DNA of 64,000 nucleotides from Pseudomonas coleopterorum. Lineage in GTDB: Bacteria; Pseudomonadota; Gammaproteobacteria; Pseudomonadales; Pseudomonadaceae. Under the pieces are notes generated by a model. That model was not told the DNA's origin. It searched no databases and worked only from the letters and a program-made list of their open reading frames with translations. How positions within the stretch are numbered: position 1 is the stretch's first letter; each line of letters opens with the position of its first letter. Of this stretch, positions 7,904-13,532 are shown piece by piece. The stretch covers positions 1,426,001 to 1,490,000 of the forward strand of contig NZ_FNTZ01000001.1 in assembly GCF_900105555.1 (NCBI RefSeq), written 5' to 3'. A program made the translations under genes and the position numbers.

Positions 7904-9232
7904 TCATTGCCCTGCGGCAATGCGCTCGCCCCAGGTGCCGGCCATGTCGCGCAGCCTGGTTTCGTCCAGGCGCGTCAGACGGCCATTGTCAAGCAGGTGC
8001 TTGCCCGCCACCCACACATGGCGGACGCAATTGCGGCCGCTGGCATAGATCAGTTGCGACACCGGGTCGTACACCGGTTGCTGGGCCAGTCCGGACAGGT
8101 CGAAGGACGTCAGGTCCGCCGCCTTGCCCACTTCCAGCGAACCGATGTTCGCTTCCATGCCCAACGCACGGGCACCGTTGAGGGTGACCATGCGCAGCGC
8201 GCGGTGGGCATCCAGCGCAGTTGCCGAACCCGCCACGGCCTTGGCCAGCAGCGCTGCGGTACGTGTGTCGCCGAGCAGGTCGAGGCTGTTGTTGCTGGCG
8301 GCACCATCGGTGCCCACCGCCACATTGACCCCGGCCTGCCAGAGTTTTTCCACCGGGCAGAAGCCACTGGCCAACTTGAGGTTGGACAGCGGGCAATGCA
8401 CGACGTTGCTGTTGCTTTCCACCAGCAGGGCGAGGTCGCCGTCATCCACCTGGGTCATGTGCACCGCCTGGAACCGCGGGCCGAGCAAGCCGAGCCGGGC
8501 CAGTCTGGCCAGCGGACGCTCGCCGGTCTGCTGTAGGGCATCGTGCACTTCGCCGGCGGTTTCGTGGACGTGCATCTGGATCGCGGCGTCCAGCTCATCG
8601 GCCAGCACGCGGATCTTCTCCAGGTTCTCGTCGCTCACCGTGTAGGGCGCATGGGGGCCGAAGGCAATGCTCACGCGGGAATGGTGCTTGAGGTCATTGA
8701 ACAGCTCGACGCCCTTGTGCAGCGCCTCATCGGCATCCCGCGCGCCGGGGATGGGGAAATTCAGCACCGGCACGCTGATCTGGGCGCGCATGCCGCTGGC
8801 GTGCACACGCTCGGCGGCCACTTCGGGAAAGAAGTACATGTCCGAAAAACAGGTGATGCCGCCCTGCAGCTGCTCGGCTATGGCCAGGTCGGTGCCGTCG
8901 CGCACGAATGCCTCGCTGACCCAGCGAGCCTCGGCGGGCCAGATGTGGCGTTCGAGCCAGGTCATCAGTGGCAGGTCGTCGGCCAGGCCGCGGAACAAGG
9001 TCATGGCCGCGTGACCATGGGCATTGACCAGACCCGGCGCGAGCAACTGCCCAGGCAACTCGCGGATTTCCCGTGCCTGCAGCCGGGCAGCCGAGCTGCG
9101 CGGGCCAATGAAGACGATCTGCCCATCACGGATGCCCAAGGCATGCTCCTGAAGCACGACACCGGCGGGCTCGACCGGTACCAGCCAGGTTGGCAGCAAC
9201 AGCAGGTCCAGGGCGGTATCGACGTCGAGCAT
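7904..9232 (-). CDS. mtaD: 5-methylthioadenosine/S-adenosylhomocysteine deaminase (TrzA/MtaD amidohydrolase)
   Basis: The 442-residue amidohydrolase keeps the complete metal and catalytic set: His72-x-His74, His221 with Glu224 in HVHET, a following histidine at 258 and Asp309 in VGTDG. MtaD converts methylthioadenosine to methylthioinosine, which Pseudomonas then phosphorolyses to methylthioribose 1-phosphate. The next enzyme in that salvage route is MtnA, encoded divergently next door. Here mtaD looks fully active while the MtnA neighbour does not, which is notable because the pair normally work in sequence. The divergent gap of 105 bases holds -10-like elements on both strands. Confidence 0.88.
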
Positions 9233-9296
9233 GGCAAGTTCCGGGCTTGTGCAGGTGGTGGCGAAGTATACCCGAGCGTCTTGGACGGGGGCTCGC

Positions 9297-9302
9297 TATA
9301 AT
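9297..9302 (+). promoter_or_regulatory. Perfect TATAAT -10 element before mtnA
   Basis: A consensus TATAAT lies 35 bases before the mtnA ATG. No good -35 box is found at 16-18 bases upstream (a TTGGAC lies only 10 bases away), so strength is uncertain. On the opposite strand TATACT at about 9264-9269 could serve mtaD. Confidence 0.4.
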
Positions 9303-9337
9303 CGAGCGCTTTTGGCGTCTGAGTACGGAGTTGGGGC

Positions 9338-10414
9338 ATGCGTGATCGATTGTTGGCGGCGGAACGGGTCAAAGCCGTTGATTGGCGAGGTGACGCGTTG
9401 CACCTGATCGACCAGCGTGCACTGCCCGCCGAAGAAGTCTGGCGCACGTTCGTCGATGCGCCCGGCGTGGCTGGCGCAATCCGCACAGGCGTGGTGTCCG
9501 GGGCTTCGGCGGTCGCCATCTGCGCTGCCTATGCCGTTGTACTCGCCGCGCGCCTGCATCGCACCGCCGCAGACGATTGGCGTGCCGCGCTGGAACAGGA
9601 CCTGCGCCTGCTGGCGGCGATCCGTCCGGCCACGGCCCATCTGTTCTGGGCGCTGGAGCGCATGCGCGAACGTCTGGGCCGAGTGCGCACCGACGAAGAC
9701 CCAGTGCCTGCCCTGGAAGCCGAAGCCCTGGCCATTCACCAGAGCGATCGCGAAGCCAATTTGACCATGGCCCAGTTGGGCGTCGAGGTGATCCGTCGGC
9801 ACCAGGGCAATCTGCAGACCGTGCTGACCCACGGCAGTGCCGGCGCGCTGGCCAGCGGCGGCTTCGGTACCGCGCTCGGGGTCGTGCGTGGGGCCTTCCA
9901 TGAAGGCATGCTCGAACGTGTCTATGCCGATGAAACCCGGCCTGGGCTGCAAGGCTCGCGCCTGTCGGCCTGGGAGTTGTCCAGCGAGGACATCCCGGTG
10001 ACCGTGACGGCCGATTCGGCGGCGGCGCACCTGATGAAGAGCAAGGGCATCACCTGGGTGATCGTCGGCGCCGAGCGGATTGCCGCCAATGGCGATATCG
10101 CCGGCCCGATCGGCACCTATCAGCTGGCGGTCTGCGCCATGCATCACGGTGTTCGGTTCATGGTCGTGGCCAGCAGCGCAGCGATCGACCTGGCCCTGGA
10201 AAGCGGCGACGACATTCCCTTGCTCGAACGCGATGGTCGCGAATTGCTGGAAGTGGCCGGAACGCGGGTCGGCGCGGACGTCGATGCATTCAATCCGATC
10301 CACGACGTGACACCGGCCGATCTGATCGACGTGATCGTCACCGAAAAAGGCATCGTCGAACGACCCGATGCGGCGAAGCTGGCGCAATTGATGTGCCGTC
10401 GACGCCTGCATTGA
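9338..10414 (+). CDS. mtnA: MtnA-like protein (methylthioribose-1-phosphate isomerase fold) lacking catalytic Cys and Asp
   Basis: The 358-residue protein aligns end to end with MtnA aldose-ketose isomerases and keeps the ADETRP, GSRL-AWEL and DSAAAHLM blocks. Three defining sites differ. The catalytic cysteine in the LTHC(N) motif is Gly166 in LTHGSAG; the catalytic aspartate of VGADRI is Glu246 in VGAERI; and the substrate-phosphate loop RGAPAIG reads SGASAVA (54-60). The usual NK after NGDxA is GP. The bases were read directly and no frameshift is involved. The locus is the usual one beside mtaD and gyrA, so this seems to be the orthologous gene with an altered active site. It may be a pseudoenzyme, a moonlighting protein or an isomerase with a new substrate. 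Confidence 0.85.
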
Positions 10415-10727
10415 ATTCGCCGCAGTGGCAAAACGCTCACTTTTTTCCTCCACAAAGGTCTGCAAGCGCCGCAGCGCCATGCCAGAGGCTCGATGCGACT
10501 CGATCAAGGGTCCTGTCAGGGTTTAAGGGGATAGGTGTCTGACGGCGATTGTGCTAACATCCGGCGGTTTTCGGGGGTGCATCGAGGTGCTCCCCCAGCG
10601 CCGTCGGTCCAAGGCGTAACTCGTTGATTTGTCGTAAGTCGCCGTTGGCATCGGCCAGCGGTGGCAAGCTTCGTTCTTCTCACAGGGAGGCAACGGAGTT
10701 TCACCAGAAAAAGGAATCAGGCTTCTC
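10415..10727 (+). other. gyrA upstream region (313 bases, no gene)
   Basis: No convincing coding sequence lies here. It contains a candidate extended -10 element, then a hairpin with GGGGG (10573-10577) pairing with CCCCC (10592-10596) and a GCA/TGC inner stem, in what would be the gyrA leader. A leader of about 160 bases would leave room for supercoiling-sensitive or post-transcriptional control, but nothing recognisable is seen. Confidence 0.5.
10552..10560 (+). promoter_or_regulatory. Extended -10 promoter candidate for gyrA
   Basis: TGCTAACAT fits the TG-n-TAnnnT extended -10 pattern, with the hexamer at 10555-10560, about 167 bases before the gyrA start. No strong -35 hexamer is apparent, which is compatible with an extended -10 promoter. 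It is a candidate only. Confidence 0.4.
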
Positions 10728-13532
10728 ATGGGCGAACTGGCCAAAGAAATCCTCCCGGTCAATATCGAAGACGAGCTGAGACAGTCCTACCTCGACTACG
10801 CCATGAGCGTGATCGTGGGTCGTGCACTGCCTGATGCACGTGATGGCTTGAAGCCCGTGCATCGCCGCGTTCTGTTTGCGATGAGTGAACTGGGCAACGA
10901 TTGGAACAAACCCTACAAGAAGTCGGCTCGTGTGGTCGGTGACGTGATCGGTAAGTACCACCCGCACGGTGATACCGCGGTCTACGACACCATCGTGCGC
11001 ATGGCCCAGCCATTCTCCCTGCGCTATCTGCTGGTCGATGGCCAGGGCAACTTCGGTTCCGTGGACGGCGACAACGCCGCGGCCATGCGATACACCGAAG
11101 TGCGCATGACCAAGCTGGCCCACGAGCTGCTGGCCGACCTGCACAAAGAGACCGTCGACTGGGTGCCCAACTACGACGGCACCGAGCTGATCCCGGCGGT
11201 CATGCCGACGCGTATCCCCAACCTGCTGGTCAACGGCTCCAGCGGTATCGCCGTGGGCATGGCGACCAACATTCCGCCGCACAACCTGGGCGAAGTGCTC
11301 GACGGGTGCCTGGCGGTCATCGACAACCCGGACGTCACCATCGATGAGCTGATGCAGTTCATCCCCGGCCCCGACTTCCCGACCGCCGCCATCATCAACG
11401 GTCGCCAGGGCATCATCGAGGCCTACCGCACCGGTCGCGGCCGCATCTACATGCGTGCCCGATCGCACGTCGAGGACATCGACAAGGTCGGTGGTCGTCA
11501 GCAGATCGTCGTCACCGAGCTGCCGTACCAGCTGAACAAGGCCCGCCTGATCGAGAAGATCGCCGAACTGGTGAAAGAGAAGAAGCTCGAAGGCATCTCC
11601 GAGCTGCGCGACGAGTCCGACAAGGACGGCATGCGTATCGTCATCGAACTGCGCCGCGGTGAAGTGCCGGAGGTGATCCTCAACAACCTCTATGCACAGA
11701 CCCAGCTGCAGGCTGTGTTCGGTATCAACATCGTCGCCCTGATCGACAACCGTCCACGCATTCTCAACCTCAAGGACCTGCTCGAAGCCTTCGTGCGCCA
11801 CCGTCGCGAAGTCGTCACCCGTCGCACCGTGTTCGAGCTGCGCAAGGCGCGCGAGCGCGGGCACATTCTCGAAGGCCAGGCGGTCGCGCTGTCCAACATC
11901 GATCCGGTCATCGCCCTGATCAAGGCCTCGCCGACCCCATCCGAAGCCAAGGAAGCGCTGGTCAGCACGCCATGGGAATCCAGTGCCGTGGTGGCCATGG
12001 TCGAGCGTGCCGGCGCCGAGTCCTCGCGTCCGGAAAACCTCGATCCACAGTACGGTCTGCGCGACGGCAAGTATTTCCTCTCGCCGGAACAGGCCCAGGC
12101 CATCCTCGAGCTGCGCCTGCATCGCCTGACCGGTCTGGAGCACGAGAAGCTGCTGGCCGAGTACCAGGAGATCCTCAACCAGATCGCCGAGCTGATCCGC
12201 ATCCTCAACAGCGCCGAGCGCCTGATGGAAGTGATCCGCGAGGAGCTGGAGCTGATCCGCGCCGAATACGGCGACGTGCGCCGTACCGAGATCCTCGACT
12301 CGCGTCTGGACCTGACCCTGGGTGACATGATCCCAGAAGAAGAGCGCGTGGTGACCATTTCCCACAGCGGCTACGCCAAGACCCAGCCCCTGTCCGCCTA
12401 CCAGGCCCAGCGCCGTGGCGGCAAGGGCAAGTCGGCCACCGGCGTCAAGGACGAGGACTACATCTCGCACCTGCTGGTCGCCAACAGCCACGCCACGCTG
12501 CTGCTGTTCTCCAGCAAGGGCAAGGTGTACTGGCTCAAGACCTACGAAATTCCCGAGGCCTCCCGCGCCGCCCGTGGCCGTCCACTGGTCAACCTGCTGC
12601 CGCTGGATGATGGCGAGTACATCACCACTATGCTGCAGATCGATCTGGAGGCCCTGCAGGCCACCGCCGGTGCCGACGAAGAGCTGGACGACGCCGACGA
12701 CACCGTGCTCGAAGGCGAGATCGTCGAGCCGGAGGAGGTCGTCGAGGCCGCCGAAGGCGAAGACGGCGATACGCCCGAGCTGGTGGCCGAGCCGACCGGT
12801 GCCTACATCTTCATGGCGACCGCATTCGGTACCGTCAAGAAGACCCCATTGGCCCAGTTCGCCCGTCCGCGCTCCAGCGGTCTGATCGCGCTCAAGCTCA
12901 AGGAAGGCGACACCCTGATCGCCGCTGCCATCACCGACGGTGCCAAGGAAGTCATGCTGTTCTCCGATGCCGGCAAGGTGATCCGCTTCGCCGAAGGCGT
13001 CGTGCGTCAGATGGGCCGTGGCGCTCGTGGTATTCGCGGCATGCGTCTGGGCAAGGGTCAGCAACTGATCTCCATGCTGATCCCCGAGTCCGGTGCACAG
13101 ATCCTCACCGCTTCGGAGCGCGGCTTCGGCAAGCGCACGCCGCTGAGCAAGTTCCCTCGTCGCGGTCGCGGCGGTCAGGGCGTGATCGCCATGGTCACCA
13201 AGGAACGCAACGGCAAGCTGATCGGCGCGATCCAGTCCCAGGAAGGCGAAGAGATCATGCTCATTTCCGACCAGGGCACACTGGTGCGTACCCGAGTCGG
13301 TGAAGTGTCGAGCCTCGGCCGAAACACCCAGGGCGTGACCCTGATCAAGCTGATCACCGACGAGAAGCTGGTGGGCCTGGAGCGGGTTCAGGAGCCATCG
13401 GAAGTCGAGGAAGACGAGCTGGAAGAAGGTGTCGAAGGCGTTGAAGGTGTCGAAGCTATAGAGCCGGACGGTTCCGAATTGGCTCAGGGTGACGTTGAAG
13501 CCGATGCCGCGGACGAAACGCCCGAGGAGTAA
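10728..13532 (+). CDS. gyrA: DNA gyrase subunit A
   Basis: This is a 934-residue type II topoisomerase A subunit. The catalytic tyrosine is Tyr122 in the MRYTEVRM motif, and numbering matches E. coli through the quinolone-resistance region, where Thr83 and Asp87 are seen; Thr83 is the normal Pseudomonas residue, so no resistance substitution is inferred. The C-terminal part holds the beta-pinwheel repeats, including a clear GyrA-box QRRGGKGK. A strongly acidic stretch of about 45 residues (roughly 646-690) interrupts the C-terminal domain, and a second acidic tail ends the protein. These account for the excess over the E. coli length. It heads the serC-pheA-hisC region but is separated from serC by a palindromic repeat. 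Confidence 0.98.

Follow-up and report, generated by a model that had tools for sequence, protein, structure and literature searches.

A Pseudomonas MtnA homologue that lacks both catalytic residues is probably a pseudoenzyme retained under purifying selection

The mtnA-family gene of Pseudomonas coleopterorum, located at 9338..10414 (+ strand) of the window (the whole analysed stretch of 64,000 nucleotides), encodes a protein of 358 amino acids in which both the catalytic Cys and the catalytic Asp are replaced. The gene is kept and remains under selection without the catalytic Cys and without most of the methionine salvage pathway, and the protein therefore probably has another job. We favour the interpretation that it is a pseudoenzyme, dead as a MTR-1-P isomerase and retained for a putative non-isomerase role. 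Three features of pseudoenzymes, namely a fold predicted to be intact, lost catalytic residues and purifying selection, are present in the window protein.

The open reading frame extends from ATG to TGA and translation of the whole frame revealed no internal stop, which bears out the initial annotation in that the frame is full length and has not decayed by frameshift. The protein is a full-length MtnA homologue above the curated cut-offs (431 bits against NF004326, cut-off 271; 362 bits against TIGR00512 salvage_mtnA, cut-off 279) and scored 216.8 bits against PF01008. The elements that distinguish the MtnA enzymes, the Cys of LTHC, the Asp of VGAD, the loop RGAPAIG and the motif NGDxANK, are all altered. 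Gly166 (codon GGC, 9833..9835) occupies the catalytic Cys position within LTHGSAG and Glu246 (codon GAG, 10073..10075) the catalytic Asp position within VGAERI. The substrate loop reads SGASAVA (residues 54-60, 9497..9517), and Gly256-Pro257 (10103..10108) stands in NGDIAGP (residues 251-257) where Asn-Lys is conserved, all on the + strand. These four readings were confirmed from the codons and by comparison with the solved MtnA-fold proteins 1t9k, 6a34 and 2yrf, which have Cys and Asp at both compared sites. We take the Cys and Asp at these positions to be the catalytic residues of B. subtilis MtnA; the PDB titles for mutants of the sister enzyme ribose-1,5-bisphosphate isomerase (C135S and D204N) are consistent with a catalytic Cys and Asp. 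Human MRI1 (mediator of Rho-dependent invasion) keeps the catalytic residues, unlike the window protein. An open frame of 403 codons (9296-10507, - strand) runs antisense to mtnA over its entire length; long frames of this kind are frequent in GC-rich genomes.

An artefact is practically out of the question, either as an error of sequencing or as a second, active mtnA elsewhere. The replacements are not a sequencing error, since the same or equivalent ones occur in the records P0001-P0004, L003, L004 and L032. The search for a second mtnA proposed in the initial annotation found none: the genome (4.92 Mb, two contigs, rated 100% complete) has a single PF01008 match, the window protein itself. 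The closest relatives, P0001-P0004 (87-96% identical to the window protein; P0002 is named P. rhizosphaerae), have in common with L003, L004 and L032 (Pseudomonas sp. 286; L003 and L032 are apparently one genome) Glu246, the changed loop and the loss of Cys, replaced by Gly or Ala. P0005 (86% identical) has Glu and the changed loop with the Cys still present, and P0006 and P0007 (76-77% identical) have all these motifs intact. These relatives nest in that order on the mtnA tree with support of 97-100; by parsimony, therefore, the loop and the Asp were lost first in the window lineage and the Cys last.

The replacements had been treated as a peculiarity of a single locus, which they are not: loss of the Cys is spread across the genus. 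In an evenly drawn sample of 398 Pseudomonas genomes, mtnA was present in 396, including all 385 near-complete ones; the two genomes without a match have completeness values of 86% and 77%. To score the Cys motif, a DNA pattern for THCNxGA was sought anywhere in the genome and was present in 244 genomes and absent in 154; a few of the positives may be due to chance because a backwards control pattern matched 3/398. We read the copies from 152 of the 154 pattern-negative genomes (the other two being those without an mtnA match) and from 49 of the 244 pattern-positive ones. The Cys position of the 152 pattern-negative copies was occupied by Gly, Ser or Ala in 149 and by Cys in 3. At least 149 of the 398 genomes, i.e. 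more than one third of the species sampled, thus carry a Cys-less mtnA. The frame is intact in 148 of these 149 copies (only that of G321 is disrupted, by a frame break) and none contains an internal stop. The commonest state, Gly166 with Asp246 and Cys247, was found in 115 of the 152 copies, and the Asp is lost as well in 16 of the 149. The Cys is missing from proteins labelled P. putida, P. soli, P. mosselii, P. monteilii and P. entomophila and present in those labelled P. alkylphenolica and P. tussilaginis; for P. chlororaphis and P. yamanorum, there are records of either state. Outside the window lineage, the loss of both residues is best developed in Phytopseudomonas (P. flavescens and relatives), some members of which have a Cys one residue later. 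At least 15 changes at the Cys and 5 at the Asp are required on the mtnA tree, which was built without the duplicates L001 and L112; the partial copies L116, L124, L123, L270 and L271 were left out of both the tree and the dN/dS analysis. No literature title or abstract opening on Cys-less MtnA in Pseudomonas was found in a search that had subscription papers mostly outside its scope, and an account may be in print.

The methionine salvage genes provide the context for these losses. In the window genome, none of MTI phosphorylase (MTIP), MtnB, MtnC, MTA nucleosidase (MtnN) and AdoMet decarboxylase (SpeD), the five functions covered by the search, had a match that reached the cut-off. Neither a supply of MTR-1-P via MTIP nor a use of MTRu-1-P via MtnB/MtnC was found. 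The window protein accordingly differs from the MtnA isomerase of TIGR00512/NF004326 in the catalytic Cys, the Asp, the loop and Asn-Lys, and in that the searched pathway genes are absent. For mtnD, 388/398 genomes passed PF03079, so that this non-discriminating cut-off was not used for counts; the match in the window genome has an E value of 1.8e-12. The proposal that salvage is either interrupted or rerouted holds for interruption, which it even understated. As the search covered these five functions, some room is left for rerouting, e.g. via MtnK, MtnW/MtnX or other users of MTRu-1-P.

The gene mtnC (TIGR01691) was over cut-off in 156 of the 398 genomes. All 156 have the Cys motif (23 were read directly), compared with 88 of the 242 genomes without mtnC; the motif is missing in 0/156 and 154/242, respectively, and mtnC is lacking in all 149 genomes with a Cys-less mtnA. 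This association is clustered on the tree (6-7 mtnC changes), and an independent-pairs test gave four supported pairs and none contrary, too few to reach significance. A hand-chosen, non-random panel of 59 genomes (G398, with coordinates identical to G249, was omitted) was examined for further genes. MTIP, MtnB and SpeD were found in 10, 10 and 9 of the 10 mtnC-positive genomes; in 8, 0 and 0 of the 18 mtnC-negative genomes with the Cys; and in 0, 0 and 1 of the 31 Cys-less genomes, the window genome being among the zeros. In a ninth mtnC-negative genome with MTIP, G202 (with Cys-containing MtnA), the match is split into two adjacent parts (profile 2-87 and 86-238), which may reflect decay of the gene. 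Among the Cys-less panel genomes, SpeD was matched only in G283 (L299); this match lies in a shorter frame, scores above the type found in mtnC-positive genomes and perhaps comes from another gene cluster. MTA/SAH nucleosidase was over cut-off in 0/59 panel genomes, and MTA nucleosidase was therefore rejected as an alternative sink for MTA. Taken together, the genomes read as a series from the full pathway through MtnA with MTIP and MtnA alone with Cys to MtnA alone without Cys, in which related genomes share states.

The gene has remained under purifying selection. The dN/dS check suggested in the initial annotation gave values of about 0.1: 0.10 for the window gene paired with L003 or L004, and an omega of 0.087 in the codon maximum likelihood (ML) analysis of the window clade. 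Compared with L032, dN/dS was 0.099 for mtnA, 0.063 for mtaD, 0.047 for gyrA, 0.031 for ubiG and 0.066 for mupP. The dS of mtnA in this comparison (0.605) was the highest among the five neighbouring genes, which disfavours selection on the RNA, and a constraint at the RNA level was rejected. The ML omega was 0.113 for Phytopseudomonas, 0.094 for Cys-less genes with Asp, 0.095 for mtnC-negative genomes with Cys and 0.036 for mtnC-positive ones, based on random samples of 12 for the three large groups and on 3 sequences for the window clade. Fixing omega to 1 in the window clade lowered lnL from -2195.2 to -2327.0, i.e. by 132 log units. Median pairwise dN/dS, calculated for the 1074-base copies only, was 0.048 (mtnC-positive), 0.146 (mtnC-negative with Cys), 0.189 (Cys-less with Asp) and 0.197 (Asp-less). 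Judged by these group values, the constraint is relaxed two- to fourfold relative to mtnC-positive genomes (2-3 times in ML omega, about 4 times in the pairwise medians) and is about equal before and after the loss of Cys, yet it is still strong. Conservation in at least 98% of the 132 Cys-less proteins with Asp was found for 71 of the 99 family-invariant positions, and 41 are conserved in all 18 Asp-less proteins. The losses concentrate on the active-site motifs compared with other invariant sites, a contrast which is partly circular because sites 166 and 246 define the groups and the motif list is our own.

The mtnA gene is flanked by a divergent mtaD-type gene (7904..9232, - strand; NF006549), whose amidohydrolase product belongs to an earlier step of the MTA route in Pseudomonas, and by gyrA downstream (10728..13532, + strand; NF004043, TIGR01063). 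The mtaD product keeps the motifs HGH, HVHE, HCPLSN and GTDG, which we take to contain its metal ligands, as had been claimed. Of the 68 Cys-less loci read with their flanks, 64 have mtaD there and 64 have gyrA within 1.5 kb. The four sites without mtaD (L153, L155, L158 and L186, from G163, G142, G091 and G342) have the Cys-less mtnA between ubiG and gyrA, and on the evidence of these loci a role tied to an adjacent mtaD was rejected. The gyrA gene is not within 1.5 kb in G296, G336 and G374, and a fourth locus without it in the flank, that of G345, seemingly ends at a contig edge. Neither neighbour alone explains the retention of mtnA, since mtaD is absent at four sites and gyrA lies outside 1.5 kb in three. 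At L169 and L179, a long open reading frame (449 codons or more, extending beyond the locus) lies downstream of mtnA in the usual place of gyrA; it starts with MST and has PLIDDR or PLIDER.

The position next to gyrA nevertheless bears on the possibility that mtnA is a relic under weak constraint, its frame being held open because untranslated mtnA mRNA would harm gyrA expression or because a misfolded product would be toxic. The frequency of gyrA in the flank is consistent with this, as are the relaxed constraint relative to mtnC-positive genomes and a crude scan that found no promoter- or terminator-like site between 9150 and 10800 (shuffled sequences gave 0.3 and 1.2 sites). Coupling to translation, however, would keep a frame open and not preserve amino acids, and omega is 0.09 rather than 1; the high dS of mtnA also argues against a relic, and the gene is intact in G296, G336 and G374 even though gyrA is not within 1.5 kb. 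We regard this explanation as doubtful. It is also improbable that the protein is still an isomerase, acting on another sugar 1-phosphate with different catalytic residues. MtnA of M. jannaschii is described as promiscuous (PMC6302742), and elsewhere in the genus Cys247, which replaces Arg247 beside the Asp, could take over catalysis. Of the 149 Cys-less copies, 120 have Cys247 (VGADCI, e.g. in L225), in 115 cases together with Gly166 and Asp246; Cys247 also occurs, together with the original Cys, in 4 of the 28 Cys-containing mtnC-negative copies readable there, and in none of the 23 mtnC-positive copies read. The pocket persists in the 132 Cys-less copies with Asp246, as Arg54 is kept in 99% and Lys257 in 86% of them. 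In the window clade, however, Arg247 stands beside Glu246 and both the substrate loop and Lys257 are missing, so that no replacement catalytic residue is apparent there. Moreover, the co-occurrence of Cys loss and Cys247 is not significant after tree correction, and no source of a substrate was found among the pathway genes examined. A relocated catalytic Cys was thus rejected as a general answer. The score for ribose-1,5-bisphosphate isomerase (TIGR00511) was 134.7 bits, well below the cut-off of 314.1, and the catalytic pair of that enzyme is missing.

A protein of the same superfamily which is not an enzyme is eIF2B alpha, the regulatory subunit of a eukaryotic exchange factor, 22-23% identical to the window protein in a structural alignment. 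The window protein shares with this subunit both the fold and the replacement of the Cys and Asp: Ala129 and Glu198 in eIF2B alpha correspond to Gly166 and Glu246. The two proteins are not orthologous by our searches, in which the window protein stayed below the IF-2B alpha/delta cut-offs and scored as MtnA; its nearest relatives are Pseudomonas MtnA proteins. Bacteria are not known to have an eIF2 system. In eIF2B alpha, the former catalytic pocket binds sugar phosphates and has been reused for sensing them (PMC8187479). Unlike eIF2B alpha, which keeps Asn-Lys, the window protein has Gly-Pro, and it is therefore uncertain whether this pocket could still sense a ligand in it; by this analogy, sensing would be more plausible in the Asp-retaining clades, where Arg54 (99%) and mostly Lys257 (86%) are kept. 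Canonical binding of MTR-1-P is unlikely in the window clade because both the loop and Asn-Lys are changed.

The preferred interpretation of the window protein as a pseudoenzyme suggests the following course of events. The ancestor would have been a MTR-1-P isomerase whose pathway was lost first and its active site afterwards. A main source of MTA would have disappeared together with SpeD-type spermidine synthesis; MTIP and MtnB/MtnC would then have been lost, which may have freed MtnA from catalysis. The protein would have been kept for a second, non-isomerase job, most likely that of a regulatory or scaffolding subunit which binds a ligand or a partner. Such a route would parallel that of eIF2B alpha, in which an old active site with Ala129/Glu198 senses sugar phosphates. 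The putative new role raised in the initial annotation thus gains no more than indirect support, from retention and purifying selection. As a tentative and rather speculative extension, Pseudomonas MtnA may repeatedly have turned into a ligand sensor or scaffold after the loss of salvage, which in the lineages with both residues lost would be a bacterial replay of the eIF2B change at the same two positions; a hidden core role predating the loss of catalysis would then explain why mtnA is present in every one of the 385 near-complete genomes sampled.

Databases name the Cys-less Pseudomonas MtnA proteins isomerases, including those labelled P. putida, and metabolic models that rely on these names would include a salvage step which is probably inoperative. 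Should the protein be retained for another function, this function may be genus-wide in Pseudomonas, and the natural series of pathway and Cys states makes it directly testable. If true, this would be a recent and replicated change from enzyme to non-enzyme inside the MtnA/eIF2B superfamily.
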